Positions 8,311 to 35,716 of a stretch of 64,000 nt of DNA are shown here, piece after piece. Each line of letters starts with the position of its first letter. Within the stretch, counting starts at the first letter, position 1. The stretch covers positions 1 through 64,000 of the forward strand of contig NZ_LNTU01000012.1 of assembly GCF_001558695.1 (NCBI RefSeq), given 5' to 3'. A program made the position numbers and the translations under genes. This DNA is from Paramesorhizobium deserti (lineage in GTDB: Bacteria > Pseudomonadota > Alphaproteobacteria > Rhizobiales > Rhizobiaceae). Below the pieces are notes generated by a model that saw nothing but the letters and a program-made list of their open reading frames with translations, had not been told where the DNA came from and ran no database searches.

Positions 8311-8468
8311 CGTAGACTTTGATTTATTGAGTCTTGCTTCCGATCTCCCGGTTGACGCTGGTGGGCCAATTACGCCGCGATCAGCTGAAGCCCTTTCCAC
8401 GGCCGAAAACGGCATTTTTGATAAGTTCTAGTTATTAAAAGCAAATACGCCAGCATAAGGCCGGCGAA

Positions 8469-11424: not shown

Positions 11425-11497
11425 CGGTTCGACCAGAGCACATTTTGCGCCGGTTTTCCTGCCCTTTCAGGCCACTGATTCACTTCGCCGCAAGGCT

Positions 11498-12500: not shown

Positions 12501-12743
12501 TCACAGCTCGCCGGTCTCGGTCCCAACGGTATCGAAAGGAAGATGTCGCGTGCGTTGGCATACGACGAGGTTTGAACGGTCCCAGCGATCTAGCTCATCG
12601 ATTGGGTATAGGACTGCTTTGCCAATTTTGATGAACGATGGCCCGATCCTCTTAGATCGCCAATTGCGCAGCGTGCCGTCGCTGATTTGATTGCGATAAC
12701 GTTCGACGACCTCATCCAGCGTTAGATAAATAGGAACAGACAC
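12501..12743 (-). CDS. Excisionase-like small HTH protein
   Basis: I choose the GTG at 12743, which has AGGAG six bases upstream, over the longer frame from 12818. The 80-residue product reads IYLTLDEVVERYRNQISDGTL then NWRSKRIGPSFIKIGKAVLY and LDRWDRSN, the winged-helix pattern of MerR/AlpA-type excisionases and prophage regulators. Such proteins act as recombination directionality factors or regulators of mobile elements. It stands alone between the IS66 element and a divergent pseudogene. Confidence 0.65.
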   Translation of the reverse strand: MSVPIYLTLDEVVERYRNQISDGTLRNWRSKRIGPSFIKIGKAVLYPIDELDRWDRSNLVVCQRTRHLPFDTVGTETGEL

Positions 12744-12892
12744 AAAATACTCCTGGGCTTTCGCAATTGTGCGGCAGCCTGTTGCACAATAACGGATGAT
12801 GAAACTAGGCGATGCCAAGGAGGATTCTATGATGCTTGAAGCGGCATTGGACCTCTGAGGGGGCAGACAGAGAGAGCATCGAAGGAATCACC

Positions 12893-17378: not shown

Positions 17379-17423
17379 ACGCCTCTCTCATAACCGGCCT
17401 TTTGCTGCCGACTGGACGATGCC

Positions 17424-18350: not shown

Positions 18351-18516
18351 GTTGAATGTTGAGCACAGCTTAGTGTTGTCAGCTATTGGTTTCTCTCGAA
18401 AAAAATTGCTTCCGTGGTCGTGAAGTAGAGATTTGGGCAAGCTTCACCATGCTATAAAAGTGCGGTGCCTTATTATAACAAATTCTGGCTGAAACATATT
18501 GGGCGGGGCGGTGGAT

Positions 18517-20457
18517 ATGAAGCTAGTGCGGTTGCGTATAAGCAACTTCAGATCGTTTGAAGCGGATTCAACAGAATTAGAACTTGACGATTTGACTTTC
18601 CTGCTCGGGCCAAACGGTGCTGGCAAGACTGCGGTTCTACAAGCATTGGCCAGACTGTTCAGTCTGGATCCGGCGCAACGCAAGGTCAGGAAATCCGATT
18701 TTCACGTTCCGCATGACGAGAAGCCCGATAAGTTGCCTGCCGAACGAGAGCTTTGGATCGAGGCTGATTTTGAGTTCCCCGAACTGTTAGGTAAAGGCGA
18801 AAAGGAAGCTCCTGCGGTTCCTGGAAATTTCGCCCACATGCAGCTAATGGGGATTGAGGGGCCGGCGCAGGTCCGATTCCGGCTGCATGCCAAGATCGAC
18901 CAGGATGATGACATCGAAGAGACCTTCACCTTCGTCATGAAGGTGGACGGCGACGGGAAGCCCCTGGAGCAGAGCCGGGTCGCAAAGCACGATCGCAATG
19001 CCATTCAGGTGCATTACCTGCCCGCCCGTCGTGACCCTGCGGATCATATTTCCTACTCGGCCAATGCGCTGTTGGGTCGTGCGTTGCGTTCTGCGGATTG
19101 GGCAGGGGAGCGCGACAAGATATCCGATCTAACTGAGGAGATCAGCGCGACCCTCGCCGGGAACAGCGCGATCGAGGGAATGACAGACACGCTGTCGACC
19201 CAGTGGGGCAAGCTGCACAAGGGCGACTATTTCGTGGACCCGGCGATTTCATTCGACCGGAGCGAGGTTGAAAACCTTCTGCGCCACATGAGCGTAGGCT
19301 TCACACCAGGCCACGGCGAGCAATTGGTCGACTTCTCCCGGCTGAGCGACGGGCAGCAGTCGCTCCTCTATTTGTCGATTGTGCTGGGCATGCACCAGAT
19401 CGGGGTCGAGGTACTCAGTGGCAAACTGGGGGATGCTTTTGATATCGACAAGCTGCGACCCGCAGTTTTCACACTGATCGCAGTAGAGGAGCCGGAGAAC
19501 AGCCTTTCGCCGCACTATCTGGGCCGCGTCGTCCGAACACTCGAACAATTCGCTGGTGGGCAGGACGCTCAGGCGGTGCTCGCCACGCACTCTCCTTCAT
19601 TGATGCGGCGGGTTCAGCCGGAATCCGTCCGATATATGCGGCTTGATGAAAAACGCACCACGGTTGTCAGATGCATCCAGTTGCCTGAGGACGAGGAGGC
19701 GCACAAATTCGTTCGCGAGGCGGTGCAAGCCTTTCCTGAACTCTATTTCTCGCGCTTCGTGGTTCTGGGCGAAGGTGACAGCGAGGAGGTTGTCCTGCCG
19801 AGGCTACTGGCTGCCGGAGGGATACTCGCCGACGATGCATCGATATCGGTCGTGCCCTTGGGCGGACGACACGTTAACCACTTTTGGCGACTTCTACATG
19901 GCCTAGGAATACCCCATGTCACGCTGCTGGACTTGGATCTCGCACGGTACCAAGGCGGGTGGGGGAGAATCAAATACGCGGCGAAGCAATTGCGGGCATA
20001 TCGCGACGTGGAGAAGATTGGATTCGACGGCGCGCAGGTTAAATCAATCCCCGACTGGAATAGCGAGCAGGGACTGATGTTGGCCGACGATGGCTGGTTC
20101 GAACTCCTTGAAGAGCACAGTGTGTTCTTCTCTTCGCCGCTTGATCTCGATTTTCTTATGATGACTGCCTATCCCGGCGCGTATGGCGTGGAGGACGACG
20201 AGCTTGAGGCTCCGGACGAGGGTGCGCTCAAGGCCGTGCTCGGCAAGAAACGCGATACTGTCAAAGGTCAATACAAGGATGACCAACTCAAATTCTTTGA
20301 CGCTTACAACACGCGATTTAAGCTCGGCAGCAAGCCTGCGTGGCATATTCAGGCGATGGCAAACCTGACGGACAAAGATCTAGCAGACGACTTGCCGGAC
20401 GTTCTCAAGCGCCTGCTGGAGCGCATCCGCGAAGATCTGAAGGCGTTGCCCGAATGA
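18517..20457 (+). CDS. Class 2 OLD-family ATPase/nuclease (GajA-like)
   Basis: From the ATG at 18517 the protein is 646 residues. The ABC-type ATPase has Walker A GPNGAGKT (residues 31 to 38), signature LSDGQQSLL, Walker B LIAVEEPEN and H-loop ATHSPSLM. The C-terminal TOPRIM domain shows FVVLGEGDSEEVVLPRL (about 413) and LLDLDLARY (about 470). OLD proteins next to a UvrD helicase are class 2 OLDs; GajA of Gabija is the best known, an ATP-controlled DNA nickase. It is somewhat longer than GajA. Its stop overlaps the helicase start. Confidence 0.85.
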   Translation: MKLVRLRISNFRSFEADSTELELDDLTFLLGPNGAGKTAVLQALARLFSLDPAQRKVRKSDFHVPHDEKPDKLPAERELWIEADFEFPELLGKGEKEAPAVPGNFAHMQLMGIEGPAQVRFRLHAKIDQDDDIEETFTFVMKVDGDGKPLEQSRVAKHDRNAIQVHYLPARRDPADHISYSANALLGRALRSADWAGERDKISDLTEEISATLAGNSAIEGMTDTLSTQWGKLHKGDYFVDPAISFDRSEVENLLRHMSVGFTPGHGEQLVDFSRLSDGQQSLLYLSIVLGMHQIGVEVLSGKLGDAFDIDKLRPAVFTLIAVEEPENSLSPHYLGRVVRTLEQFAGGQDAQAVLATHSPSLMRRVQPESVRYMRLDEKRTTVVRCIQLPEDEEAHKFVREAVQAFPELYFSRFVVLGEGDSEEVVLPRLLAAGGILADDASISVVPLGGRHVNHFWRLLHGLGIPHVTLLDLDLARYQGGWGRIKYAAKQLRAYRDVEKIGFDGAQVKSIPDWNSEQGLMLADDGWFELLEEHSVFFSSPLDLDFLMMTAYPGAYGVEDDELEAPDEGALKAVLGKKRDTVKGQYKDDQLKFFDAYNTRFKLGSKPAWHIQAMANLTDKDLADDLPDVLKRLLERIREDLKALPE

Positions 20458-22115
20458 TGCGCGTTGACCGATGGACGCCGTCGGATAATCTCAAGCTCGA
20501 GCCGAATGCCCTTGTCGCGGCAACCGAAATTGATCGAAACTTGGCACTGACCGCAGGTCCGGGAGCTGGCAAGACAGAAACGCTTGCGCAGCGGGCGGAC
20601 TTCCTCCTTCGCACGGGCAGCTGTCGATATCCCAAGCGAATTCTAGCGATCTCGTTTAAGGTGGACGCGAGCCAGAACCTCAAGGCAAGAGTTCGGAAGC
20701 GGTGCGGTCACGAGCTAGCAGCGCGGTTCGACAGCCATACGTTTCACGCCTTCGCCAAGCGGATCATTGACCGCTTCCGGCTGGCACTGACGGGAAAGGA
20801 TGCTCTCGATCCAGACTATAGTATCGGGCCAGCGCGGGTCCAAAGGCAGTCGATCACGTTCCAAGACATGGTTCCGCTGGCGGTAACAATCATCGAGTCC
20901 AGTGATATTGCGAGGAACGCCATCCGACAGACCTATAGCCATGTCTTTCTCGATGAGTTCCAGGATTGCAACAAAGAGCAGTACGCACTGATCACAGCCT
21001 GCTTCCTAGACTCTGGCGCTAAGTTAGTTGCAGTCGGCGACACCAAGCAGAGGATCATGGGCTGGGCCGGAGCGCTGGAGGGTATCTTTGAGACCTATGC
21101 AGCAGATTTCGAAGCAGAACCGCTGAACCTCTATCAGAACTTTCGGTCAGCCCCCCGGCTTCGTCGTATGCAAAATGCGATGGTGCGCGTCATGGATCCT
21201 CCCGCTGCGCTCGACGATGCGGAGCTGCCGGGCGAAGATGGCGAGATCGAAATTCTTCACTTCAAGGATGCCACCGCGGAAGCCTCGTATCTTGCTGACG
21301 CGATCAGCGGCTGGATAGAGAAGGATGCCATCGAGCCCTCCGAAATCGCAGTGCTCGTCAGCAAGCAGCAGAACCTCTATTGCCAAGAACTGCGTGTTGC
21401 TCTGCGAGAGCTAAAGGTCCCATTCCGTGAGGAAGACCAGGCGCAGGATTTCGCCTCCGAGCCGGCCGTGAGGCTGCTAACTGACTTTCTCCTCGTGGTC
21501 AGCGGTGGCGCGCAACCGGAGGCGTTTCGGCGGTTGCTGGAAGCCGTCATTTACAGCGAAAGTCTCGATGATGAGCAGGAATACCGTGCTCGTTCTCGGT
21601 GGGACCGCTATGTTGGCGACGTTCGCCAGCAAATAGCGACAGGGCAGATCAATCCTGGCGACTACGATGCGCTGACAAAACTCGCCCAGGAGCTCATCGA
21701 CATGATCGGTCGAGATGCTGTTGTGGCTTTTTCACCGGACTATGCGCAAGGCAACAGGCTAGATCAGTTGATCGAGGGCACGGTAGCCCGAATTTCCGAT
21801 TTGCTTGACGATGGAAGTGACCTCTCCGCGGCGCTGACTGCCTTTTCGGCAGATCGCGCCGTCAGGATCATGTCGATCCACAAGAGCAAGGGCCTGGAAT
21901 TCCACACCGTGATAGTGATGGGCATCGAGAAGGAGACCTTCTGGGGAAAGATCGAAGAGGAACGCGCCGCATATTTCGTCGGGATTTCGCGCGCCAAGCA
22001 AAGGCTCGTGCTCACTGCGTGCGATCGTCGCGACAAGCCAGAAGGGGCGTCACGGTGGACTTCAGAACGGACGGATCAGACGGAGTTTCTCGGCTATGCG
22101 GAAGCTTACGCCTAG
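20454..22115 (+). CDS. UvrD/Rep-type helicase (GajB-like)
   Basis: The start ATGATG at 20454 overlaps the OLD gene stop, giving 553 residues. Superfamily 1A motifs are clear: LTAGPGAGKTET (I), FDSHTFHAFAKR (Ic), VFLDEFQDCN (II), VAVGDTKQRIMGW (III), LYQNFRS (IV), VRIMSIHKSKGLEFHTVIV (V) and YFVGISRAKQRLVLT (VI). In Gabija GajB is the partner of GajA and works as an NTP hydrolase that lets GajA act after phage entry. The coupling supports a two-protein complex. Confidence 0.87.
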   Translation: MMRVDRWTPSDNLKLEPNALVAATEIDRNLALTAGPGAGKTETLAQRADFLLRTGSCRYPKRILAISFKVDASQNLKARVRKRCGHELAARFDSHTFHAFAKRIIDRFRLALTGKDALDPDYSIGPARVQRQSITFQDMVPLAVTIIESSDIARNAIRQTYSHVFLDEFQDCNKEQYALITACFLDSGAKLVAVGDTKQRIMGWAGALEGIFETYAADFEAEPLNLYQNFRSAPRLRRMQNAMVRVMDPPAALDDAELPGEDGEIEILHFKDATAEASYLADAISGWIEKDAIEPSEIAVLVSKQQNLYCQELRVALRELKVPFREEDQAQDFASEPAVRLLTDFLLVVSGGAQPEAFRRLLEAVIYSESLDDEQEYRARSRWDRYVGDVRQQIATGQINPGDYDALTKLAQELIDMIGRDAVVAFSPDYAQGNRLDQLIEGTVARISDLLDDGSDLSAALTAFSADRAVRIMSIHKSKGLEFHTVIVMGIEKETFWGKIEEERAAYFVGISRAKQRLVLTACDRRDKPEGASRWTSERTDQTEFLGYAEAYA

Positions 22116-22221
22116 TCCATCGCCGAAGCGCTGCTCCGCGATTCCGTCCCCGGCCGCACTTGATGAGGCGGTGGTTGGATAGAGGACAGGGGTGACGTGC
22201 GATAATGGATGAGGAATATCG

Positions 22222-24873
22222 ATGGCTGCTGCCATTCTGAGGGAACAAGCGCGATCTGAACTTTTCCGGACCGTTGTTGTAGACGGTCCGCTCGCCCTGC
22301 GCATGGCTCGGCTAAAAGCCGCACGTGCGGGCGTGGTCGGCCTTCAGATCATGACCCTTCCGCAGTTGGCCGCTCGGTTGGCGGGAGGGTTCGTGCGCCC
22401 AGCTCAACGAGAAGAGTTAGAGCCCGTGCTCGCCGATGCGCTTGCCGAAGGCGGGTTCGCGGAGCTGACGCCACTACAGAGTCTGCCAGGGACAGTGCGT
22501 GCCCTGGTGCGGACCTTCGAGCGGCTGTGGTCCGCTGGGGTCGATTTGGCTTCGTTGAGCCCTGAGCCGCGGATTTCAGACCTCGCCCTCATCGACCGCA
22601 GGGTCAGGACGCGGCTCGGGCCTGGCGTCCTCACACCCCCCGACCTGGTGGCGGCTGCCAAAGCGCGGGTCCACCTTGCCGCCGATCTGCTCGGGCCCGT
22701 CGCTTTCGAACACATCGTCTGGGTCGCTCCGGTCTGGCGGAGTCTCGTTGCGGCCGTCGGTGGGGTGACGAGCATGATGAAGCTCCCCGCTGAAGAGGTG
22801 GGCGGCGCGCCGTCCGCCATAGCCGCCTGGGTCTGTGCCGATCCCCATTCGGAAGTGGTCGAGGCCTTGCGATGGGCGCGCGAACTGATCGCGACTGGCA
22901 GGGCCAAGCCCGAGGAGATCGCGATCGCCACCGCCGCCCCCGGTGCTTGGGACGAATCCATGCAGACTCTGGTGGCGAGCGCCGAGTTGCCTGTCCATTT
23001 CTCCCACGGAACGCCGATCCTTTCGACGGTCGATGGGCAGGCATGCGCGGCTCTGGCCGAGCTCTTGGGACAAGGGCTCTCGCAGGAGCGAGTGCGGCGC
23101 TGGCTGGCCCATAGCGCGGGGCGCTGTGCAGCCTTGGCGGCACTTCCCGAGCATCCGCTGGCTGGAATCCAGGCCCAAGTCCATCTTAACGACTTGGTCC
23201 ATTGGCGGCGCGCGCTCGACTTGGCTCAGGGACAGCGGACCGATGGTGCGCGGCCGGCGCTCTCGCTCCTGCCGGCTCTGGAACTGACGAGCAGAGGATG
23301 GGCGGCAGCTGAAGAGGCGGGACAAAGACTATTGCCGGCCTCCGCAGCGCGGGTCTGGAGCGTGGCCCTGCGCGCCGGGCCGGCGGAAGCGCTCGCCTTC
23401 TCGCTGGCGGCATTGCGGATCCCTGACGGCGCCGAACCGGGCAATAGTGTCGTCTGGTGCCCGGCCGCGCATCTGGCGGGCGCCCCACGACGCTTCGTGC
23501 GGCTGATCGGTCTCACTGCCGGAGGTTGGCCCCGAGGCGTTTCCTCCGATCCGCTCCTGCCTGACCACATCCTCTCACTGGACGACGATCAAGCGCCGAC
23601 GCGGCCACAGCTCGATCGGCGGTCGTTCGCCTCGATCGTGCGCCACGCCGAGAATCTTTCCCTCTCCTATAGTCGGCGCAATGGCCGCGGAGGGTTGCAG
23701 ACGCCCAGTCCGCTGTTGCCCGCGAACCTGACACCGGTTCGGCTGGCCCGTCAGCGTGTTCCAGAGCATGCGTTCAGCGAGGCAGACCGGCTGGCCGCTC
23801 GGCCCGAGGAGGCCCGGCAGAGCCCGCGCATCGCCCGCGCCGTCGGATGCTGGCAGGCCCGCCGCTCGGCGGAAGCCAGTGCGCATGACGGTATCATTCA
23901 AGCCGACCATCCGGTGGTGATCCGCGCGTTGGACCAGCCGCAATCGGCGACCTCCTTGCGGCGGCTGCTGCGCGACCCGCAGGGATTCGTGTGGCGCTAC
24001 GCCCTCGGCTGGCGGGAGGCCGTTGTCACCGACCAGGCGTTCGACCTGGACCCACGAGCCTTTGGCGACCTGGTTCACTCGTTGCTCCAGCGGACTGTGA
24101 ATGTTCTCGAGCAAGGATCCGGCTTCGGCCGGGCGTCCGCGGACGAGGTCGAGGCCGCCCTAGACACGGCCCGCGACGCGGTCCTTGTCGAGTGGCCGCT
24201 CGAACGATCGGCGCCGCCGCCGCTGCTGTGGCGCTACACCCTCGATCACGCTTGGACGGTGGCGTTGCGAGCCCTACAGCTGGATCCGAGCTTCGAGGCG
24301 GGGACGCGCAGCTGGACAGAAGTGCGATTCGGTGACCCCGAGGGCGACGCGGCGGACCCGAGGGCGCCATGGGATCCGCACGAGATCGTTCCGGTTCCTG
24401 GCACGCCGCTCACGATCCGCGGCGCCATTGATCGCCTCGAACTCGATACCGGCGACCGGCGAGCCCGGGTCACCGATTACAAGACCGGAGCGGTCCCCAA
24501 GACGCCCCAAGACCTGCGGCTCGGAGGCGGCGCCGAGCTGCAGCGTGTGTTGTACGCTGTCGCGGTGGCCCACCATCGGCCGGAGACCCGGATCCAGGCG
24601 CGACTGGTCTTCTTGGCGGAGGAGACCCCGCAGCCTTACCCGCTTCGGGGCGAAGATCTGGACCAAGCCCTTGCTGCCGCTACTCAGCATCTCAACGCGG
24701 GCGTAGCCCTCGCCCGGGCGGGGACCAGTTTGCCAGGTCCGACCGATCCCTGGGAGGAGTGGAACGAGCTGCGTATCGCCCTGCCGGCGATCGGTGAGCC
24801 TTTCATCAGGATCAAGGACGCGGCCTTCCGTCGCGCATTCGGCGACTTCGCCGCAGTCTGGCGGGCGCGATGA
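22222..24873 (+). CDS. AddB-like PD-(D/E)XK nuclease
   Basis: The start at 22222 has GAGGAA six bases upstream. The 883-residue protein has an AddB-type inactive helicase-like N-terminus (LPQLAARLAGGFVRPAQ; LPGTVRALVRTFERLW) and a RecB-type nuclease domain at the C-terminus: FGDLVHSLLQ (His), GAIDRLEL (Asp) and VTDYKTG (Asp 752, Lys 754). It is shorter than housekeeping rhizobial AddB (about 1,050 residues), and I do not see the AddB iron-sulfur cysteines. AddA follows with a four-base overlap, so they probably form one complex. I take it as an accessory paralogue, since the genome should have its own addAB elsewhere. Confidence 0.75.
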   Translation: MAAAILREQARSELFRTVVVDGPLALRMARLKAARAGVVGLQIMTLPQLAARLAGGFVRPAQREELEPVLADALAEGGFAELTPLQSLPGTVRALVRTFERLWSAGVDLASLSPEPRISDLALIDRRVRTRLGPGVLTPPDLVAAAKARVHLAADLLGPVAFEHIVWVAPVWRSLVAAVGGVTSMMKLPAEEVGGAPSAIAAWVCADPHSEVVEALRWARELIATGRAKPEEIAIATAAPGAWDESMQTLVASAELPVHFSHGTPILSTVDGQACAALAELLGQGLSQERVRRWLAHSAGRCAALAALPEHPLAGIQAQVHLNDLVHWRRALDLAQGQRTDGARPALSLLPALELTSRGWAAAEEAGQRLLPASAARVWSVALRAGPAEALAFSLAALRIPDGAEPGNSVVWCPAAHLAGAPRRFVRLIGLTAGGWPRGVSSDPLLPDHILSLDDDQAPTRPQLDRRSFASIVRHAENLSLSYSRRNGRGGLQTPSPLLPANLTPVRLARQRVPEHAFSEADRLAARPEEARQSPRIARAVGCWQARRSAEASAHDGIIQADHPVVIRALDQPQSATSLRRLLRDPQGFVWRYALGWREAVVTDQAFDLDPRAFGDLVHSLLQRTVNVLEQGSGFGRASADEVEAALDTARDAVLVEWPLERSAPPPLLWRYTLDHAWTVALRALQLDPSFEAGTRSWTEVRFGDPEGDAADPRAPWDPHEIVPVPGTPLTIRGAIDRLELDTGDRRARVTDYKTGAVPKTPQDLRLGGGAELQRVLYAVAVAHHRPETRIQARLVFLAEETPQPYPLRGEDLDQALAAATQHLNAGVALARAGTSLPGPTDPWEEWNELRIALPAIGEPFIRIKDAAFRRAFGDFAAVWRAR

Positions 24874-27800
24874 CGGAGCTTCGAGACGCCGCTGCTCGGG
24901 TGCGGGCCTTGTCGGACTTCGGCTCGACCCTGCTGGTGGAGGCGGCCGCCGGTACGGGCAAGACCTCGCTGCTAGCCGGGCGGATAGCGCTACTGCTGGC
25001 GAGCGGCGTGTCGCCGCCGTCCATTGCCGCCATCACCTTCACGCGGCTCGCGGCCGACGAACTCGCAGGTCGGGTGCGCGAGACCATCGACGAGCTCTTG
25101 GCGAAGAGGGTCCCGCGTCCGCTGCAGGCGGTTCTCCCGGGAGGGCTCACCGACGACCAGCGTAGGGCGCTGGAAGCGGCGTCCGCGGGACTCGACGGCC
25201 TGACGACCACCACCATCCACGGTTTTTGCCAGGAAATTCTGCGTCGCTACGCCGTCGAGGCCGATGTCGACCCCGGCGCGGACGTCTTGGACAGGGACGG
25301 GGAAGACCTGGCATTCGGACAGGTGTTTGAGGCCTGGCTCGGCCGTCGGCTTGGCGACGGCCGGCGGGCGGAAGATCCAATCGCAATCCTGGCGCAGCGA
25401 GATCCGCGCAAGTCCACAAAAACCTTGCGGCAGATGGCCGATTTCCGTCGCAAACACCGTGACGCGACGGCGCCCTTGCTTGACCTGACTGATCGGCCGG
25501 ACTCCGTGTTCAGCAGCGCCGTGGACGCGTTCAGACGGGCCGTGGCCGCTGGGCCGCCTGACAATCGCAACACTGTTGTTTTGGAGAATCTGGAGGCGCT
25601 GGACCTTCACTTTCGGGACGGCTTCGCCGTCACTCCGGACTTCGCCCGTCTGTGGCGACTTGCCCATCCGCCGCAGCTGAGCTGTATGGCTAAGGACTCA
25701 TTCGACCTCCAGCGCCCGCGACACCTTGGGGCGCCGGGGCCAAATGCTGCAGCCGAGCATCTCCAGCTGGTAACGGCCTATGAGGAGACCGAAGCTGCCT
25801 ATCGGCAGTTGATGGGCGGCATCGGCAGCGGCGTTTTCGCCACCCTGTTCCCGGAGTTGGACGAGGTGCTGGCCGACTATGAGGCCTACAAGCGACGGGC
25901 AGCGCTCCTCGATTTCGACGATCTTCTAATTCGCACCCGGCGCCTGTTGCGCACCCATGAACCGGTTCGGCAGCATTTGGCGGCGTGCTATTGCTACCTG
26001 CTCGTGGATGAATTCCAGGATACCGATCCAGGGCAGTGCGACATCATTTTCCGGATTGCGGCGGCCGAGCCGGCGGAGGAATGGACAGAACTCACGCCCC
26101 GCGCGGGCGCTCTCTTTCTGGTTGGCGACCCCAAGCAGGCAATCTTCCAGTTCCGCGGCGCTCACATCGCCAACTACGAGCTCGCGAAGGCGCTGATCGT
26201 GCGCACGTGGCCCGACAACGTCCTCCAGATAAGCGCGAATTTCCGCTCACGTGAGGGCGTGCTGACTTATGTCAACGGCGCTTTTCGCGCAGCCCTCAAC
26301 GCGGCGTCGCAGCCGGGTTATGTCGAGCTGGAGGCCACCCGCAGAGACGATCCTGCGCGGCCGAGCGCTGCTCGTCTGACGATCGGCGCGCCTCCTGCTT
26401 CCAAACGCGAAGTTCTGCAGATCGAGGAGGCTGATGCCGTTGCGGCAGTCTGCGCGAAGTTGGTGGGCGCGCGGCTCCTGCGGGATGCCGAGGGCCGCAT
26501 TCGGCCGGTGGCGGCGCGCGATATCGCTTTGCTTGCGCCGACCAGCAACAGCCTCTGGCTGTTCGAGCGCGCGCTGCGCCGTGTCGGACTTCCCATCACC
26601 TCGCAAGCGGGCAAGGGACTCTATCGCCGCCAAGAGACCCAGGATATCATAACGCTGCTGCGGGTGCTGGCCGACGCCAAGGACACTGTCGCGTTCGGCG
26701 CCTTGATGCGAGGCCCGCTGGTCGGCTTCACCGATCAGACCTTGCTCGACATTACGGCAGCTCTGCCTGAGCGGAACGGGCGGCCCGGTGTCTTCACGGT
26801 GGCCACCCCGCTCGACGACATCGCCGATACGGAAGCGCGTGCGGTGGTAGCTGAGCTGGTGGCGCTTCGCCGTCGCGCGCGGTTCACCAGTCCCGCCCAG
26901 CTCCTCGGTGAGGCGATCGAGCGTCTGGGCGTGCGCGTCGTGCTTTCCCTACGCGACGATCCGCGCCACGCGGCGGCGGCCACCGCCAATATCGACGTGA
27001 TCCTGGAGCGTGCGGCCCGCTACGGGGTCCGCGGGCTCCGCCGGTTAGCCGCGGACCTGCACGCAGACTGGCGGGACAACCGCGAGGCGTCCGAGGGTTG
27101 GGGCGAGGTCGATGGCGACGCAATTTCGATCGTTACTATGCATAGTGCCAAGGGGCTCGAGTGGCCGGTTGTGATCCCCATCAACGGGGTCGTGCAGCTG
27201 CGCTCGCCTGAGCGGTTCGTCCGCCATCCAGATCTTGGTACGCTCCACTGGCTGGTCGGGGACATCTCTGCTCCGGAGCTCGCCGAGACGGTCCGGCAGG
27301 ACACTGCAAGCCAGCAGCGTGAAAGGGTGCGACTCTGGTACGTGGCGTGCACGCGCGCCCGGGATTTCTTGATCTTGCCGCATCACCCGGACGCGAATGC
27401 GCGGTCTTGGGGACGAGTACTCGATCTCGGCGCTGCCGGTCTGCCGGAGATCGATCTGGGCGCGTTTGCAGGAAACCCACCGGCCCCCGACGCAACGCCC
27501 GCTAACAGCCAGGACGCTGCGACCTTCGCAGATGAGGCCGAACGCATCGCCGCGGCGAGTCCGCCCATCACCTGGCTGCGGCCCAGCGACCATGATGCCG
27601 ATCGAGCCCAGAGGGTGGAGATGGTGTCGGACTCCCTCGATGAGGAGGCCGAGGCATGGATCGCCACCGGCGGGCGCCTGAGGGGCCTCGTGCTGCACAA
27701 GCTGATGGAGGAAATCCTGGAAGAGGGGTTGGCCGAAGAGACCAGCGCGCTGACCGGGCGAGCGCGGGAGCTGAGCGCGCAGATCCTCGCTCCGGGCGAG

Positions 27801-28157: not shown

Positions 28158-28164
28158 TGGCTTC

Positions 28165-30822
28165 CTAGAGTGTCACGCCACCGCCTAGCTTACGAAGTTC
28201 GTGCAAGGGGAAAGGGCGAGCGGTGTCGGCGTCGTATTGTGCATGCGCGCCACGCAAGCGGTGGACCAAAGTCGCCAAAGTCAGAGGATCATCCCCCTCC
28301 TGGTGGAAGGCAATGCAGATCTCGTCCATTTGCGAACTGACCCGGCCTAAATTCTCCTTTGGCGGGCGGACGCCCTCTTCCAACTCGGTGTGCCTGGAGA
28401 CGCGGGCGGCGAAATGCTGAGCATTGGAGACCGTAATCGGCTTCTGCTTCAGAGCGTAGTAGGTGCGCTTCGCCGCGCCCCAGCTGAAGAGACCGCTCGG
28501 CCAGCTGTTGTTCGTATCGTGGTGATAGTAGGGCTGCCGCTTAGGATCGGGGCTCGTGCGAACCATCCGCAGATTAGGCAGGTCGTTCGGCGTGAGCGTT
28601 CTATTGGCGATCGTCAGCTGGTCGAAGACCAACCTTCCGTTCGCCAGCGCCGAAAACTTGTGCGTCAGGGTTTCACCCTCGCAAATCACTAGAGCGGGGC
28701 CGACTCGATTGATATCCTCCATTGCCATGGTGAAGAAGGTCTCGAACTTGGCGAGGTTCTCTTCCTGACGGCCTCGACCGAACTTGCCATAGTCGCCCTT
28801 CAGAATCCGCAGAACGGCGACCGCATAGGGCGCCCATTGTGGCGTCCCGGCTTCGTCCGGAATTGCACACTCCAGGTGTCCCTCCTTAGTGCGGGCGGCA
28901 AGCGGGAAGGCGTGACCCTTGCGCTGCTGGCCTGCCACGAAGTCTGCATTTCTTTGGATGACCGTCAGAGCGGCCGGCTGCAAGTCCTGCGGCAGGTCCT
29001 CCACGGGCAGAACGCCCAGCATGCGCAGGCAGTCGCTGAGGGCCGATCCATATTTGGCTTTCATCGTGTTTTCGGACAGCGCCTCGACGGAGGTCAGCAC
29101 GATCTGAGGCAGAAGATTTGCATATGCGAGCACCCGTCGGGCAAGCTGAAACGGATCGCCCATGCGTCCCTTCAATGCCTCGGGCATTTCCAAAATGGCC
29201 CAGCCGATTCCAGTCGTTCCGGCGCGGGCCGCGGCCACGTATGCCGCCATCGCCTTTTGCGCTTCGTCGAACGCCTGCGAGCGGTTCAACTCGCGAATGC
29301 TGCGCAGTTGGGCAGGGTTGAGGACTTTTGCCTCTTCTATCGTCGCCTCGTCCCACGAGATTTCCTCTGCCAAAACGCTGGCGTTGACTGAACGTAGTCG
29401 GACTGTGAGCCCGCAGCTCCACGATAGCACACCGGGCTCCTGTATCTCCGGCGGGCCGAGCTCATCGAGGAGGGCGCTGGCGAGCCGTTGGGGTGCGTCC
29501 TCCCGCCGCTGGAAAATGAAGAGATCGACCTCGGCGGTGGGCGCACCCGCCGCCTCTAGGGCCATGCGGACAGCGCGCCGGCGCGCGGCGAAGATCTCTC
29601 CGTCCGCCTTGCTGTTGAACGGTTTGTCGAGCGGCATCACGACTCGGGCGCGCGTCATCGGCTCAACCGCCGCAAAGCCCGCTTTGGAAAGGGCCTGGTT
29701 CAAAGACTCACCGATGTCGTGGCGGTCTGGCCAGGAGATACCGGTGCCGCCAGGCAGCCAGTCATCGCCATGTACGGTTCCGAGGCGCGGCAACACCCAT
29801 AGGCCGTCCTCGTCGACTACGGGTTGGGCCAACTCATGCGGAGCGAGGGCGGCCCGGCCGGTGAGGCGACGGACCAGGTCAAAGACCTTCTGATCGTCCT
29901 TGTGCGGCCAATAGGCAACAGTTGGCCCGTATCCGCCTTCAGCGGGTGCCGGGCCGGCCTTGGCACGAAAGTCGAAGGACGTGTGGCGATAGGTGTCGCC
30001 AGAGGCGATCTCCATTGCGGGCATGAAGACGTCAAGCGCGCGATTCGGATCGTTGCGACCCGTCCATCGGCTCACCGAACCCCAATTGCGGATGGAAGGC
30101 CGCGCCAACAGGTGGAGTCGAGCACGTTCGGGATAAGTGGGCGTGTAGAGAGTGATGACTTCACTCCAAAGGCCTCGTTGGGTCTGGCGCGGCGGAAAGG
30201 CGACCAGCTCCACCCCTGTAAAGGCATCCGCTTGTGCGGCTTTGGCCACGAGCACGCGCTGCGTGCCACTTTTGAAGCGCAGGTCTTGTCCGGCTAATGC
30301 GTACAGGGCGTGCGCGGCGATTGCATCGAACATCAAACTGTCTGCCGGACTCGGACAGGCGCTTACCTGCTGCTGAAGCGCGCCATTAACCGACAGTCTG
30401 CTCCAGCTGGCGGCGTCCATAGCGGTCGCTGCGATCGCTGCGCGCGTGGGAGCAGGCTTGTCGGGATAGATCAGGGTCAGCCACAGGCCGATAGCCGCTT
30501 GGACCCGGAGACGCAGTCCCTCGTTGGCGGCGACATCGCCTACCAGAAAGAAGGAAAGAGGTTTGCTCTGGGTCTCGGGGTCCCAATGATGGCGCCGCAT
30601 GAAAGCGATCTCAGGTACAAACCAGGCTAAGATTTCCGAAAGCCCATCGAGGCGTAAGGTCGACGGGGCGTCATCCGCGCGCTTGGACTTCTCCCGTGAC
30701 CAGGCCTGAAGGGTCTCCTGCGCGTCCGGAGAGAGGCGGTAGCGTGTCAGGATCAGGGTGTCCTGAGCCGTGAAGCTGGCCTCCCAGACATTTAGATTGA
30801 GCGAATTCACGTTGCTAGCCAT
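28165..30822 (-). CDS. pPIWI_RE protein (Argonaute/PIWI-like)
   Basis: I start at the ATG at 30822, which overlaps the helicase stop by eight bases, giving 885 residues. The protein matches the pPIWI_RE family (DUF3962 and RNase H-type PIWI module). The C-terminal module (about 600 to 885) shows ALVICEGETLTHKFSALAN (710 onward, with the family Glu), QPYYHHDTNNSWPSGLF, LFSWGAAKRTYYALKQ and ATLVHRLRG. I do not see an obvious first-strand Asp, so catalysis is uncertain. The family has been predicted to work against invasive DNA with a REase and DinG-type helicase, exactly the two genes upstream. It is the third gene of that operon. Confidence 0.82.
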   Translation of the reverse strand: MASNVNSLNLNVWEASFTAQDTLILTRYRLSPDAQETLQAWSREKSKRADDAPSTLRLDGLSEILAWFVPEIAFMRRHHWDPETQSKPLSFFLVGDVAANEGLRLRVQAAIGLWLTLIYPDKPAPTRAAIAATAMDAASWSRLSVNGALQQQVSACPSPADSLMFDAIAAHALYALAGQDLRFKSGTQRVLVAKAAQADAFTGVELVAFPPRQTQRGLWSEVITLYTPTYPERARLHLLARPSIRNWGSVSRWTGRNDPNRALDVFMPAMEIASGDTYRHTSFDFRAKAGPAPAEGGYGPTVAYWPHKDDQKVFDLVRRLTGRAALAPHELAQPVVDEDGLWVLPRLGTVHGDDWLPGGTGISWPDRHDIGESLNQALSKAGFAAVEPMTRARVVMPLDKPFNSKADGEIFAARRRAVRMALEAAGAPTAEVDLFIFQRREDAPQRLASALLDELGPPEIQEPGVLSWSCGLTVRLRSVNASVLAEEISWDEATIEEAKVLNPAQLRSIRELNRSQAFDEAQKAMAAYVAAARAGTTGIGWAILEMPEALKGRMGDPFQLARRVLAYANLLPQIVLTSVEALSENTMKAKYGSALSDCLRMLGVLPVEDLPQDLQPAALTVIQRNADFVAGQQRKGHAFPLAARTKEGHLECAIPDEAGTPQWAPYAVAVLRILKGDYGKFGRGRQEENLAKFETFFTMAMEDINRVGPALVICEGETLTHKFSALANGRLVFDQLTIANRTLTPNDLPNLRMVRTSPDPKRQPYYHHDTNNSWPSGLFSWGAAKRTYYALKQKPITVSNAQHFAARVSRHTELEEGVRPPKENLGRVSSQMDEICIAFHQEGDDPLTLATLVHRLRGAHAQYDADTARPFPLHELRKLGGGVTL

Positions 30823-33800
30823 AGGCGAGACCCTTGGTCTTGGAGAGCGCATCGCGGAAGGGCTGGTAGAGCAATTTCGCGAGGGTTCTGGCGGTGAGAT
30901 CGGATGATGCCATTGCGACGTCGAGCTGGCGAAGCGCTTGAACGAGGACGCTGCTGTCGGAGGAATCGGTGGCACCGTCGAAAGAAAGTGGCGCGAACTG
31001 GCGATCCACAAAACCGATGTGCACGGGACAGCCGTTGCGAATGCCGCGGCCGATGGTCTGCCAGAGTGGGGTCAGCATGTCCCAGGCGAACTGGGCTTTG
31101 TACTCAGTGGACAGGCTACTGTAGCCGCTGCGCGAATAGAGGCTGTAGCGAACGATGTTGGTCGCGGCGTAACGCATTCGGCGAGCGCGTTGGGACAACC
31201 GCTCGTCCGGCTGTTCCGGATTCTCGGCCATACCGCGGTCAAAGCGTTCCACGCCGTAGCGGTTCAGACGGCCGATCACTGCGGCAAGGTCGTCTGGCCG
31301 CGGATGGGGTCGGTGCAGAAAATAGACCGAAGCAATCGCCGCACGACTTTGGCTGTTGAGGATGTTGTGGCCACGGGCGACCACCTGCATCGGTGCGACC
31401 AAAATCGATTTTTCGGGTTCCTCGCCGAAGCGTTCGATCAAGGAGCGGGGGAGGGGCCGGGCACGCCGCAAGCGCTGATCGTCTGGCGCGTCGGCGTCAT
31501 CGGCTTGGTCCCGGGTCAGGCCGAACACCCGCCAGTCGGCGAAGCCGTGAGTCTCGAGACTCTCTAGCAGGATGTCAGCGACGATCGCAGCATCGGCATA
31601 GGAATTGGTGACCAGGAGGGCTCGGCGACGCCCCCGCAAGTGCTCCTCGCCCCATTCACGAGCCATGCGCAGCCAGTTCTCCTCGATGAGGTTCAGGTTG
31701 TCGCGGCGCGTGGATAGGCGCACGGCTACGCCGCTCAAAGCCTTGCGACGGTCTGCTTCCCGCAGACCGGAAATCCGGACCTGCTTTCCCTCCTCGTTGC
31801 GTAGGCTCACCAGCTCAAACACCGACCGCCCGATCGCATCGAGTTCGGCCTGCGGCTGCAGCAGCACTCCTTGGGCTGGGATTTGCACGTCGAAGCTCGG
31901 CGAGGCGCAGTCCATGGGTTTGCCAGTGCGCGGATTGAACTGACGTTGGGAACCGCCGGCCCAGCTCGTGCCGCTAAGCATCAGTACATGGGGCCCCGCC
32001 TGTCCTTCGCTGGCAAGCAGGTCATGTAGGTGGGTGAGTAGGTGGCGGCCGACCCCCAGGTGGTTGATGAGGGTCAGCTTGCCACCCATCGTGTCGCGCC
32101 GGTCCTCACTAGGCTCGTCATAGAGCAGCCCGAACACCGCTCCGGCCGGGTTTGATGGCAGTAGGGTACGGTAATGGCGAATTAGGTTGTTGGCCTGGCT
32201 CAGCAGCTGAGCGTCGTCGATCCCGAGGTCTGTGGCCACCGCTGGCTGGGCCTTTACCAGCCAGTAGTAGTGGGACAGGACTAGGTCAGTGACAACAGCC
32301 AATACCAACGCGAGCGCATTGCCGCGAGGGCTCATGGCTGCCTTGTTGTCGGGGGCGGTGGCGTTGAAGGCCGCGAGTGGACCATCCAATAGATCCTGGA
32401 CCCGTTCGGCCAGGTCCTCATAGTAGTCGCTGACCACCATGTCTCTGGCGATGCCCTGCAGGGCTTCGCTGGCTGACTGAAAGGTAGCGTCACGGAAAGC
32501 CTGGTGCGCCTCGTCGGCCTGTTCCTCAGTCTCATCCCGGCTGACGGCGGAGCCCTGCGAGTAACGCGAGATGCTCGCCGCGACCTTGATGACCTCCAGG
32601 AAGTCCTCTTCAAAGTCCGGATCGTCGAAGCTGCGACCGGGACGTGCGAGGCCCTTCACGTCCTGCCGCCGACGCCAGATCTCGTAGAGGATTCCACCGG
32701 CGGTGAAGGGGCTGTTACGATAGAAGTCGGCCACATAGGCCTGCTCGTTCTGGAGAAGAGCGTAGAGGGTCCCGATCAGGCGATAGAAAATGTGGAAGTT
32801 TGCTTGCCAACGGGCGTTCACTTGGCGACGGAACTGCACGCCACTGCGCTCGCGTAGCGCCTCGGACGACTTGGCGCCGATGGCCGGCGCGTAAACGTCG
32901 CGCTCGTCGCCCATGATCGGAGAGCGAGGGGCGAAGATGTCATCGAGGGTCTTCTGCACGGAATCGACTTCGTCGACGATCATCAGGTCAAGGGTGTGTT
33001 GGAACAGTTCCGGCAGGGTGAGGTGCCGCGCCGAGGTCCATTTGTCTGGCGTCATGTGAACGAAGGCCTGGGGCGTCAGGGCGATGACCTTGGCGGTGAC
33101 GGCACTGCGCTGCTGTCCCTGAGCCGGGCATTGTGCCCAAAGGGGACACGACCGCTCGGCGCCGACATCGGCGTTGTCGTCGATCTCCGCGTCATCGGCG
33201 AGCTCGGCATCCCGGCGACGCTGATAGATGCGGTGGCAGGGCTTTTCCTTGAAGGTTGGGAAGGCAGGCCGCTGGCTCGATCCGCGGACGACGACCGGAT
33301 CGCGCTGGAAGCCGTCGAGCGGACAAGCGACGCTGAAGTTCTCGGCGACGTCGCCGAGGGCCGCCACCGACCAGCCCGAGGACGACAGGCCCTGCTGCCA
33401 GTGAATGGAGTTCAGGTGGCGGTCGCGATTGTAGAAGCTTGAGAGCACAGTCGCGTCGACACCGTGCATCCGCAGTCGGGCGATAAGGGTCGCACCCTGG
33501 ATGGTGTCGGTGACCAGGATGCCGATGCGTTTCCCTCCGCCGCCGAGGGTCAGGGCCATTACGACAAGCCACACCAGGGTGGATTTGCCGGAGGACAACA
33601 TGCCGAGAACATGTACAGCGCCGTCTAGGGTCAGGGTCTCACCGTCAAAGAAACCGTCCTTAAGGCCTTCGAGCTTGAGTTTAGTGAGGCGGTCGCGCAG
33701 CCGAAGCGGCGGGAGTGTCGAGGGCCAGTCCGGCTGCGCTTCTCGCGCGTCGACCGTTTCGGCGGTGGCTTGCAGCTGCGCCAAGGTCAAGGTGATCGGC

Positions 33801-34375
33801 GGATTCAGGCGCCGGCGCGGCAGGGTGTGCTCGGTCGTGGTTGTCGCCTCCGGGTCGACCGGCGGGATCTGGTAGGCCAGCAGCGTCTCACCGCGGTTGG
33901 TACGTACCAGTGCCTCGCCCGCGCTGGCCGGCTGCAGGATACGGCTTACCCAAGGCGCCGGGGTCTCCAGATGTTCGGCAAGGACGGCGAGCACGCCATC
34001 GGGAGCGCTACGCCGCAGGGTCGGGATGCGACCATTGACGGCGTAGCAGCGCATCGTCTCGGGGGTGAGGCTGTGTAGCCGGCAGGCGTCTAGCCAGGCC
34101 GACGCTGACATGTAGCGGCTCGCCAAGTGCCGCAAGCTGGTCAGATCCCGCAGGAAGACTGAATCGGCACCGTCCGCCATAACCTTCGCATAGCCAAGCA
34201 ACAGATAGGGAAGAGCCGATACGTCCTCGTCCGGACAATGACGGGCGAGGAAATGAAGGCAGAGCTCGGTGAGCCCCAGCGTGCGGTCCTCGGTCGCGGA
34301 CAGGTTCCGTGCAGCAGGGTCGGCGCTTCGTAGCGCCTTGCGGTAGGCTGCCACGAAGGTGCGATCGGTTCTCAT
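30815..34375 (-). CDS. DinG/XPD-type Fe-S helicase of the pPIWI_RE module
   Basis: The 1,186-residue protein starts with a pPIWI_RE_Z-like HTH region (SASAWLDACRLHSLTPETMR). The helicase part has Walker A GMLSSGKST (258 to 266), Walker B IVDEVD (466 to 471) and late motifs IGRLNRYG and QTIGRGIRNG. Cysteines at 351, 380, 410 and 416 (SVACPLD, EKPCHR, RSCPLWAQCP) sit where XPD/DinG helicases bind a 4Fe-4S cluster. It overlaps the upstream REase gene by four bases and the downstream pPIWI_RE gene by eight. It likely remodels DNA or guide-target duplexes for the PIWI protein. Confidence 0.82.
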   Translation of the reverse strand: MRTDRTFVAAYRKALRSADPAARNLSATEDRTLGLTELCLHFLARHCPDEDVSALPYLLLGYAKVMADGADSVFLRDLTSLRHLASRYMSASAWLDACRLHSLTPETMRCYAVNGRIPTLRRSAPDGVLAVLAEHLETPAPWVSRILQPASAGEALVRTNRGETLLAYQIPPVDPEATTTTEHTLPRRRLNPPITLTLAQLQATAETVDAREAQPDWPSTLPPLRLRDRLTKLKLEGLKDGFFDGETLTLDGAVHVLGMLSSGKSTLVWLVVMALTLGGGGKRIGILVTDTIQGATLIARLRMHGVDATVLSSFYNRDRHLNSIHWQQGLSSSGWSVAALGDVAENFSVACPLDGFQRDPVVVRGSSQRPAFPTFKEKPCHRIYQRRRDAELADDAEIDDNADVGAERSCPLWAQCPAQGQQRSAVTAKVIALTPQAFVHMTPDKWTSARHLTLPELFQHTLDLMIVDEVDSVQKTLDDIFAPRSPIMGDERDVYAPAIGAKSSEALRERSGVQFRRQVNARWQANFHIFYRLIGTLYALLQNEQAYVADFYRNSPFTAGGILYEIWRRRQDVKGLARPGRSFDDPDFEEDFLEVIKVAASISRYSQGSAVSRDETEEQADEAHQAFRDATFQSASEALQGIARDMVVSDYYEDLAERVQDLLDGPLAAFNATAPDNKAAMSPRGNALALVLAVVTDLVLSHYYWLVKAQPAVATDLGIDDAQLLSQANNLIRHYRTLLPSNPAGAVFGLLYDEPSEDRRDTMGGKLTLINHLGVGRHLLTHLHDLLASEGQAGPHVLMLSGTSWAGGSQRQFNPRTGKPMDCASPSFDVQIPAQGVLLQPQAELDAIGRSVFELVSLRNEEGKQVRISGLREADRRKALSGVAVRLSTRRDNLNLIEENWLRMAREWGEEHLRGRRRALLVTNSYADAAIVADILLESLETHGFADWRVFGLTRDQADDADAPDDQRLRRARPLPRSLIERFGEEPEKSILVAPMQVVARGHNILNSQSRAAIASVYFLHRPHPRPDDLAAVIGRLNRYGVERFDRGMAENPEQPDERLSQRARRMRYAATNIVRYSLYSRSGYSSLSTEYKAQFAWDMLTPLWQTIGRGIRNGCPVHIGFVDRQFAPLSFDGATDSSDSSVLVQALRQLDVAMASSDLTARTLAKLLYQPFRDALSKTKGLAYG

Positions 34376-35661
34376 GGCGCTAACCCTTCGAGGAAGTCGG
34401 ACACGGCGGCGAGCGAGACGGTAGGACGGCCGTTGGCCGCGCGCAGAGCCTCGAATCGAGCCTCAAAGCGAGGATCCGTCTCGATGATATAGTCGGGGAT
34501 CACGAGGTAGCAGTGGTGGTCGGCCTCAAAAGTCTTGAAGCCATTGAAACGACTGGCAAGGCGCGCCGGCGAAATATAGTCCTTAACGTCGATGGCCAAC
34601 CGTCGGCTGCCGTCCGGTGCGATTGCTATAAGGTCAACTCGATCTAGGGCTGGCCATAGGTTGGTCGTCCAACCGAGCGCGTCCAACCGGCGCTTGAGTT
34701 CAAGCTCCGTCAGGCCCGGAAGCGCCCAGAAGGTGCGGAAAGCGCGCTTCAAGTAGAGCATGCCAGGGCGGTACTTGAGCCTTCCATGTACGCCTTCGCG
34801 GGCCCTGCGGATTGCCTCAGGCTGGCGACACTCGGTGTGGAAGGCGCGCCCGTCACGCCGTAGAATCGTCCCGCTTATAGTGCAGGTCGGCAGCTCACCG
34901 TTAATCGCGAAGCTCTCGGGGATCCGGTCATAGAAAGCCTCGACGATTTCGTCCGATCGTTCGAGGGTGGCGAGCAACGGGTCCATGAGGATGGCTGTGG
35001 ACCAGCTCGTCATGACCACATTCTCGATGACGGTCTTCCGCCAGGTCCGGTAGAGCTCCTCACCATCGACCCGGTCGCGGCAGAGGCCTACCAGCATCTC
35101 ATAGCCCAGGTTCTCCTCGATCTCGGATTCAGGATCCCCCCCAGGCAGGGCCAAGGCACGGCACGCAGTGCTCGCCTCACCGGACTCCACCAACCGCACG
35201 GCAAGGTAGTCGCCGCCAACATCCCAGCTAATATCCGGAAGCCACCGGAAGAGAGGTTCCTGAGCTCGGCGCATCAGTCCGTGAAGATCAGTAGGCCAGA
35301 CGTCACCTCCGTCCGCGAGGTTGCGGGCAGCGCCCAGGTCGAACACACGCCGGACGGACATCGGATACGGCGCCCTCAACCACCCTTCGGCGTCGATACA
35401 GGTCTGAATTTGGATGATGGCACTGGCGATCAGAGTGACCATTTCGCGAACGGCGTGGACGGGCGCCTGGGGACCTTCAAGCTGCGAGAGTTTGGCAAGT
35501 ACATCCGGCGCCACGCCCGCTGGATCATCGAGATAGCGGTAAAGGGTCGCGCGGCCGATGCCGAGTTGCTCGGCAGCGGCCGTCTTCCAGCGGCGGCCAT
35601 AGCCGAGCTTCTCCGAGAAGAGCGCCTGGGCGCGCTGGGGAAAGGGTGGTGTATCGACCAA
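34372..35661 (-). CDS. pPIWI_RE-associated REase with N-terminal HTH
   Basis: I choose the TTG at 35661, eight bases after GGAG and about 20 bases after the predicted transcription start; a TTG at 35682 would coincide with that start. The 429-residue protein has an N-terminal HTH (KTAAAEQLGIGRATLYRYLD), a middle pPIWI_RE_Y-like region, and a C-terminal restriction-endonuclease fold: ELKRRLDALGW, VDLIAIAPDG (Asp 343), LAIDVKDY (Asp 358, Lys 360). This matches REase_pPIWI_RE proteins. As the first gene, with a DNA-binding domain, it may also autoregulate the operon. Confidence 0.8.
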   Translation of the reverse strand: MVDTPPFPQRAQALFSEKLGYGRRWKTAAAEQLGIGRATLYRYLDDPAGVAPDVLAKLSQLEGPQAPVHAVREMVTLIASAIIQIQTCIDAEGWLRAPYPMSVRRVFDLGAARNLADGGDVWPTDLHGLMRRAQEPLFRWLPDISWDVGGDYLAVRLVESGEASTACRALALPGGDPESEIEENLGYEMLVGLCRDRVDGEELYRTWRKTVIENVVMTSWSTAILMDPLLATLERSDEIVEAFYDRIPESFAINGELPTCTISGTILRRDGRAFHTECRQPEAIRRAREGVHGRLKYRPGMLYLKRAFRTFWALPGLTELELKRRLDALGWTTNLWPALDRVDLIAIAPDGSRRLAIDVKDYISPARLASRFNGFKTFEADHHCYLVIPDYIIETDPRFEARFEALRAANGRPTVSLAAVSDFLEGLAP

Positions 35662-35673
35662 AGAATCATCTCC

Positions 35674-35716
35674 GTGAGACAAATGGGATAGTAGCGTCTC
35701 AAGTGTCTCACATCAA
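35674..35716 (-). promoter_or_regulatory. Promoter-operator of the pPIWI_RE operon
   Basis: Read on the minus strand: -35 TTGATG (35716 to 35711), 17-bp spacer, -10 TACTAT (35693 to 35688). The spacer holds two direct copies of TGAGAC ten bases apart, and an inverted copy lies just after the -10; GTGAGACA (35704 to 35711 complement) and TGTCTCAC (35674 to 35681 complement) are perfect 8-bp arms. This is a textbook repressor arrangement. The natural candidate regulator is the HTH domain of the first gene product. Confidence 0.65.

Follow-up and report, generated by a model that had tools for sequence, protein, structure and literature searches.

A Gabija-like pair beside an AddBA and pPIWI_RE cassette in Paramesorhizobium deserti, and the recurrent defence neighbours of accessory AddBA genes

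Seven adjoining genes for nucleases, helicases and a PIWI protein lie within a 64,000-nucleotide stretch of the Paramesorhizobium deserti genome (contig NZ_LNTU01000012.1, positions 1 to 64,000; hereafter the window). They comprise a Gabija-like OLD-UvrD pair, a second pair that encodes AddB-like and AddA-like proteins (AddBA), and a pPIWI_RE triad convergent to it (Table 1). We propose that these are two units, a Gabija pair beside a five-gene cassette of AddBA and pPIWI_RE, in which AddBA is a shared DNA-end module for exchangeable defence modules; this view is tentative, and we give it somewhat less than an even chance. The coupling of AddBA to its partners is well supported; the function is what we propose from it.

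The limits of the cassette are drawn by Bradyrhizobium sp. 141, whose sequence aligns to the window in a single 13.5-kb block (83.4% nucleotide identity over 13,519 columns), starting 11 bp before the addB start and ending 34 bp past the REase start, with no further similarity at E 1e-8 across the 50 kb compared. Since this genome has only AddBA and the triad, with sharp ends, the five genes appear to move as one unit and the Gabija pair as another. The block of the Gabija pair recurs in Bradyrhizobium nanningense (L074), where it converges on an AddBA that shares no nucleotide similarity with that of the window, and plasmid p1S06B (L211) has the same arrangement. In the plasmid copy, an IS66 element lies between gajA and gajB (7284-13565). 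A larger region, window positions 14381-37076, is found at 93.0% nucleotide identity in a Tardiphaga metagenome-assembled genome (L037, G397:C125 19631-42371), whereas the adjoining map and sfsA pieces are only 72% and 64% alike. We read this disparity as recent transfer of a larger island into the same radC-map-sfsA site, which is likely an integration hot spot.

Loci for comparison came from a scan of one genome per species (84,980 species), which gave 183 AddB relatives; the best 80 were retained and four plasmid loci were added by hand, making 84. One of them (L055) has no open reading frame (ORF) in the AddB cluster and was left out, so that adjacency is counted over 83. Each ORF was taken to start at its first ATG, GTG or TTG, and gaps of a few bp vary with the start chosen (in L035, 2 bp in the deposited annotation versus an overlap by the starts used here). 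An OLD-UvrD pair is present in the fetched flanks of 17 loci (18 of 84 before stricter criteria excluded L111, whose UvrD piece has 151 aa). In 16 of the 83 it lies within 500 bp of AddBA, at most about 107-110 bp away; in L076, cut at a contig end and retaining the AddB part only, the two overlap by the ORF starts used. The pairs are of different subtypes and orientations: OLD-I (UvrD-OLD) is divergent from AddBA in eight loci; OLD-II is co-directional in L037, as in the window, and convergent in L074 and L075; OLD-III is convergent in L067, L068, L069 and L073 and co-directional in L076. When the OLD-I loci were compared pairwise (pieces over 300 bp), the sole common block in 20 of 28 pairs was a stretch of about 9.6 kb from the UvrD stop to the AddA stop, 73-87% identical in nucleotides. 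Six pairs had this block and one further piece, and two had a longer block (L053-L065, 13.5 kb, 93%; L060-L034, 17 kb, 99%). Blocks are also shared between loci with AddBA and convergent OLD-III (L067/L068) or convergent GajBA-II (L074/L075).

Because several loci are near-identical (L042, L044, L047 and L054 over 22 kb; L068/L073 and L060/L034, 99.5% and 98.9% alike over long stretches), we used counts of clustered AddB sequences. OLD-UvrD adjoins 10 of 47 clusters at 90% identity and 5 of 17 at 70%, against none of 40 AbiEii and none of 40 SIR2_2 control anchors, for which the adjacency limits were looser (1500 and 2700 bp); Fisher tests against the pooled 80 controls gave 2.5e-5 and 9.6e-5. 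The controls, one per genome within each set, came from the top of match lists in 397 genomes of the host's order, while AddBA loci came from the genomes of all species. Of the SIR2_2 matches, about a dozen were skipped manually, most of which lay close to a contig end or were the second in their genome; some control loci are truncated by contig ends (for example, L138 and L191), and the window's own AbiEii and SIR2_2 matches were excluded. The AbiEii gene of the window is about 2.2 kb from the Gabija pair, within the flanks and beyond the 1500-bp limit. At short range, chance adjacency of OLD-UvrD is rejected; over whole flanks compared with AbiEii, it is not. On the AddB tree, which was built by a quick method, has flagged long branches (among them L064 and, next to the window's clade, L048) and carries partner labels set by hand (L036 as OLD, near but not adjoining; L089 as TerB), the minimum number of label changes is at least six for OLD, three for SIR2-HerA and two for TerB.

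On plasmids, positions were compared by hand; the comparison covered 60 of the 61 records with AddB and the 40 best OLD matches. Among the matches listed, all five records with full-length OLD-I at 80% identity or more have AddB 112-119 bp away, and none of the ten OLD-I matches at 60-80% adjoins AddB; of these ten, only the Bradyrhizobium barranii record carries an AddB, and there 3.1 kb separate the pair from AddA. Six of the eight OLD-III matches listed at 64% or more are convergent and 4.75-4.79 kb from AddB (4.7 kb in L067); of the others, one is 5.8 kb from AddB and one far. The coupling of AddBA with OLD-UvrD is therefore a property of certain clades and not of every OLD-UvrD pair.

An earlier note on this DNA had suggested that OLD-UvrD, AddBA and pPIWI_RE form one composite system, to be checked by co-occurrence against a baseline. 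The check came out differently for the two partners: OLD-UvrD exceeds its controls at close range, and pPIWI_RE adjoins AddBA in only 2 of 83 loci. The full triple was met only in the window and L037, the Bradyrhizobium sp. 141 block has no Gabija, and of the plasmid records that carry a GajA relative, 57 in all, a single one recurs among the 60 AddB records listed. Since, moreover, the PIWI label needs one change on the AddB tree, each part is also found elsewhere without the others and AddBA neighbours vary, we reject a conserved AddBA-PIWI-OLD machine.

Several other modules are found beside AddBA. The AddB start lies within a few bp of HerA in a SIR2-HerA pair in the near-identical copies L042, L044, L047, L051 and L054, and of DEAD725 in a TerB-BrxC/D-DEAD725 row in L035, L105 and L113. 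In L041 (988-4940), it is abutted by a JetD-like (Wadjet) gene, again within a few bp. SIR2-HerA also occurs downstream of AddBA (L078, L103) and the TerB row convergent to it (L089). Clustered controls were applied to OLD-UvrD adjacency only, and for other partners we have raw flank counts: SIR2-HerA in 7 of 84 loci versus 1 of 40 controls, and TerB-BrxC/D in 4 of 84 versus 0 of 40. A BilD-like cluster gene lies 187-244 bp upstream in L040, L046, L057 and L072 (the BilD model match is displayed for L046 only), and in L052 and L071 AddBA faces an Hhe/PDC-S37-like gene in convergent orientation at distances of 12 and 70 bp (model match displayed for L052). ZacA is immediately downstream in nine loci, a 1113-aa helicase gene is 14 bp downstream in 12, and a divergent WYL gene is immediately upstream in 26, in many of them with HmaA or methylase genes beyond. 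DUF1403-ScpB immediately precedes AddB in L033 and L039, and some neighbours have no defence-model match. A large, more distant AddBA branch (L077-L116), often with divergent WYL, HmaA, Zac, methylase and the 1113-aa helicase, may constitute a separate, defined multi-gene system.

The AddBA family is uncommon. Relatives of AddB were found at E 1e-10 in 13 of 397 genomes of the host's order, the window's own included, and on 61 of 72,556 plasmid records; none was found in phage records at E 1e-5. Most titles are alphaproteobacterial, with L050 (Gammaproteobacteria), L108 (Pigmentiphaga) and one Desulfosarcina plasmid record as exceptions; L053 and L083 are titled chromosome, and most other records are contigs of unspecified replicon. 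In the order sample, a SIR2_2 match about 4 kb from an AddB match (G092:C3 109908-117070) is possibly a further SIR2-AddBA neighbour.

Are these truly AddAB-type genes? An AlphaFold (AF2) model of the window's AddB, built from an alignment of 39 (pLDDT 86.7, pTM 0.59), has Bacillus subtilis AddB (4cei_B) as its best Foldseek match (E 1.8e-23, TM 0.59/0.47). The label 'AddB-like' of the earlier note is thus right, as judged by the predicted fold, despite the distance from the host's AddAB. The host genome (5.48 Mb, 41 contigs) has a canonical AddA on contig C1, beside a 1066-aa ORF. It scores 1530 bits against TIGR02784, the alphaproteobacterial AddA equivalog (cut-off 860.75), where the window's AddA scores 176.6. 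The two AddA proteins are 27% identical over 545 columns, and the window's AddB resembles the 1066-aa ORF only around the nuclease motif. We therefore reject a housekeeping role for the window's AddBA, which is an extra, accessory copy from a different branch, as had been supposed.

The pair retains its catalytic residues. In AddA, the Walker A Lys-Thr, the DExQD motif (x = Phe/Tyr) and the nuclease Asp/Asp/Lys/Gln/Tyr are conserved in 77 of 77 aligned sequences, an alignment that left out loci without a full AddA; Lys31 is the motor lysine, and Asp1047 and Lys1049 belong to the nuclease residues. In AddB, Asp737, Lys754 and Gln774 are conserved in 83 of 83 sequences with a letter there, and Asp752 in 82 of 83. 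Pfam finds a UvrD-type helicase (E 3.3e-51) and a PDDEXK_1 tail (E 1.3e-5) in AddA and PDDEXK_1 at the AddB C-terminus (E 1.7e-23); PADLOC gives no match for AddB. The AddB N-terminal region has no Walker A motif. With an SF1 motor in AddA, conserved motor and nuclease residues and PD-(D/E)XK residues in both subunits, AddBA looks like a one-motor, two-nuclease AddAB-type enzyme that is active across its partner settings. Iron-sulphur cluster cysteines are typical of AddB, not universal; none is found around the nuclease domain here, the only Cys being at 205, 275, 302, 413 and 543.

Table 1. Genes and units in the window
Feature	Positions	Strand	Remarks
gajA-like class 2 OLD nuclease (ABC ATPase + TOPRIM), 646 aa	18517..20457	+	Pfam AAA_21, OLD-like_TOPRIM; PADLOC GajA
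gajB-like UvrD helicase	20454..22115	+	PADLOC GajB 736 bits, E 7.3e-222
AddB-like protein, 883 aa; helicase-like region without Walker A, C-terminal PD-(D/E)XK nuclease	22222..24873	+	
AddA-like SF1 helicase with C-terminal PD-(D/E)XK nuclease, 1095 aa	24870..28157	+	
pPIWI_RE protein (X, MID, RNaseH-like domains)	28165..30822	-	Pfam/PADLOC
DinG-type helicase with pPIWI_RE_Z domain	30815..34375	-	Walker A-like 258, DEAH 621
pPIWI_RE_Y + REase protein, weak N-terminal HTH matches	34372..35682	-	Pfam/PADLOC
Gabija pair as probable separate unit	18515..22117	+	Block 74.5% identical (nucleotides) in Bradyrhizobium nanningense L074
Probable five-gene cassette, AddBA + pPIWI_RE triad	22211..35716	.	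Single block common with Bradyrhizobium sp. 141

The seven genes are intact and in the order and strands described earlier, as long ORFs and Pfam/PADLOC matches confirm, and the 4-8 base overlaps reported within each pair or triad were measured, as read from the sequence, at 4 bp for gajA/gajB (20454-20457), addB/addA (24870-24873) and REase/dinG (34372-34375) and at 8 bp for dinG/ppiwi (30815-30822), taking ATG 30822 as the pPIWI start. The gajB stop is 106 bp from the addB start, and the addA stop 7 bp from the ppiwi stop. Two marks of Gabija, an OLD with ABC ATPase and TOPRIM and an adjoining GajB-type UvrD, are present; the known system is further marked by a 4:4 GajA:GajB complex and by anti-phage activity. 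The GajA match is 884 bits (E 1.5e-266), and motifs of this protein were read by eye. The triad has the order REase-DinG-pPIWI with overlapping ends; its pPIWI_RE protein matches PF18157 (76.1 bits) and PF13032 (105.5 bits), with the MID and RNaseH-like domains both present. A four-protein alignment did not place the conserved R and E of the PIWI module or the catalytic Asp pair, which few members have, nor did the spacing in PsPIWI-RE place the catalytic residues. Sequence searches of the PDB with pPIWI_RE, the DinG-type helicase and AddB were empty at E 0.01, and promoter and terminator scans gave chance-level results.

The neighbours on one flank are AbiEi/AbiEii, two HNH proteins, an IS66 transposase, an integrase and a HEPN protein; the opposite flank has radC, map and sfsA. 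The HNH genes are tandem HNH_2 copies of about 310 aa each, between AbiE and the Gabija pair (16446-18350). Directly upstream of the REase gene (35660-35716), we noticed by eye GTGTCTCA-like repeats, which may form an operator bound by the REase protein through its HTH-like N-terminus. Look-alikes occur upstream of an Azospirillum pPIWI_RE triad (L119, about 7040-7220), whose pPIWI is 43% identical. The pPIWI_RE MID domain is present in 2 of 397 genomes of the host's order, the window's included, and one plasmid record has a relative of the protein. In genome G237 (L124, 3184-16322), this domain lies inside a 2868-aa open frame, which is either a fusion or a read-through frame; the upstream region has a second long ORF besides a distant REase relative.

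What might AddBA do beside such different modules? Gene content, catalytic motifs, the predicted AddB fold, block boundaries and repeated close adjacency are observed, and from these we infer every functional step that follows. AddBA would load onto invading DNA at free double-stranded ends, whether these were injected or cut by a partner nuclease, and would unwind and degrade it from the ends, recognition coming from the partner. Beside pPIWI_RE this would be its likeliest role, with recognition by the triad. Beside OLD-UvrD it may have the further role of occupying ends, so that DNA without this activity is marked for attack, the part that RecBCD plays for Pseudomonas Gabija; an OLD-UvrD unit that brings along an AddAB-type enzyme would hold both sides of the Gabija/RecBCD circuit. 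A cassette with its own AddBA would be independent of the new host's enzyme, and a phage protein against AddAB or RecBCD would become a trigger. Gabija of Pseudomonas aeruginosa is reported to act on linear DNA without RecBCD activity, phage end-binding proteins that exclude RecBCD license it and RecBCD protects the host (Hong et al. 2025, PMC12407980); recBC cells are killed by P2 Old (PMC10568477). That RecBCD action on ends controls Gabija (PMC12407980) gives a testable reason for AddBA to lie beside OLD-UvrD. It is also conceivable, if on the doubtful side, that AddBA is the constant core of modular composite immune systems and that blocking this portable AddAB triggers the attached effector. 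The swappable modules may then be OLD-UvrD (at least three subtypes), the pPIWI_RE triad, SIR2-HerA, TerB-BrxC/D-helicase, and JetD-like, BilD-like, Hhe-like and Zac modules.

Several observations weigh against a shared DNA-end module. A need for DNA ends is not obvious for BilD- or SIR2-type partners. The pPIWI_RE-AddBA link appears, from the AddB tree, to have a single origin, and the pPIWI_RE loci on the Azospirillum plasmid and in G237 have no adjoining AddB; OLD-UvrD pairs, too, are found without AddBA. Only close adjacency of OLD-UvrD stands out: over whole flanks, with 90% clustering, 11 of 47 clusters against 3 of 40 AbiEii loci is not significant (p 0.077). The sampling itself favours OLD near AddBA, because neighbours of AddBA, together with the window, supplied the OLD and UvrD models and because loci were picked by likeness to the window's AddB. 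The OLD family PF20469, which misses the G396 OLD-III adjoining AddB in L067, is present in 98 of the 397 order genomes, and lies near AddB in the window only (1 of the 13 AddB genomes of that sample).

Could AddBA, Gabija and the triad instead be autonomous, gathered by plain defence-island clustering, with shared blocks due to recent common ancestry of neighbours? The separate occurrence of the parts, the great diversity of AddBA neighbours, the AbiE, HNH and HEPN genes of the window and the OLD-UvrD in the flanks of 3 of 40 AbiEii loci all fit this explanation. We nonetheless consider it rather unlikely, given close OLD-UvrD adjacency in 16 of 83 loci versus 0 of 80, several block types with sharp ends and differing flanks, and upstream partners joined to AddB within a few bp. 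A role for AddBA in the mobile element itself, namely end repair, recombination or replacement of the host AddAB during plasmid or integrative and conjugative element establishment, seems improbable. It would suit the plasmid records, 40 of which are predicted conjugative, the DUF1403 and ScpB genes in the flanks of seven loci, the DUF1403-ScpB-AddBA-AbiE segment common to L033 and L039 at about 87-90%, and the repABC genes near AddBA in L033. However, the window's copy lies beside radC, map and sfsA on a 710-kb contig, L053 and L083 are titled chromosome, and most shared blocks examined pair AddBA with nuclease or helicase defence genes.

The earlier note had also imagined that AddBA makes short DNA or ends that serve as pPIWI_RE guides. 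The five genes do form one cassette; guide-DNA patterns of prokaryotic Argonautes (pAgo) around Chi sites implicate RecBCD processing (PMC10269773), and PsPIWI-RE also uses DNA guides, on RNA (PMC10991935). However, the same sources report that PsPIWI-RE cuts DNA with RNA guides and that RecBCD is dispensable for pAgo guide biogenesis, which lowers the likelihood of this idea; 81 of 83 AddBA loci, moreover, have no adjoining pPIWI_RE, and two pPIWI_RE loci have no AddBA. We regard it as very improbable. Should AddBA indeed be a shared DNA-end module, enzymes of the RecBCD/AddAB kind would travel with their watcher on transferable cassettes, beyond their role as watched host repair machines. 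This would explain how Gabija-type function could survive transfer to hosts with different repair enzymes and would let the guard model be tested by simple genetics. In alphaproteobacteria, the AddBA genes would then serve as a marker for finding composite defence cassettes.

Each component has known counterparts. The window's OLD-UvrD pair matches PADLOC GajA and GajB nearly end to end and differs from Gabija in lying 106 bp from an accessory AddBA; OLD-UvrD and AddBA cassettes were not met in the open-access literature searched. The triad shares its domains and its REase-DinG-pPIWI order with the three-gene system of Burroughs (2013, PMC3702460), proposed to target DNA-RNA hybrids, but its shared block also includes AddBA in convergent orientation; AddAB or RecB does not appear in the main text of that paper. 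AddBA resembles AddAB, AdnAB and RecBCD in its predicted AddB fold, SF1 motor and PD-(D/E)XK sites in both subunits; unlike them, it is accessory, lies beside defence modules, falls far under the TIGR02784 cut-off and has no cysteines around the AddB nuclease. Enzymes of the AddAB type are further marked by end resection under Chi control. P2 Old, Gabija of PA14 and retron Ec48 also link OLD or Gabija to an end-processing enzyme (PMC12407980, PMC12904381, PMC10568477); there, the host's enzyme is watched, whereas here an AddAB-type enzyme travels with OLD-UvrD. The open-access literature searched yielded no report that AddAB-like genes repeatedly accompany Gabija, pPIWI_RE or further defence modules, in agreement with the earlier opinion that an AddAB-type complex between such modules is undescribed. 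Gabija, pPIWI_RE, AddAB and defence islands are already known; a partner-swapping accessory AddBA appears to be new.

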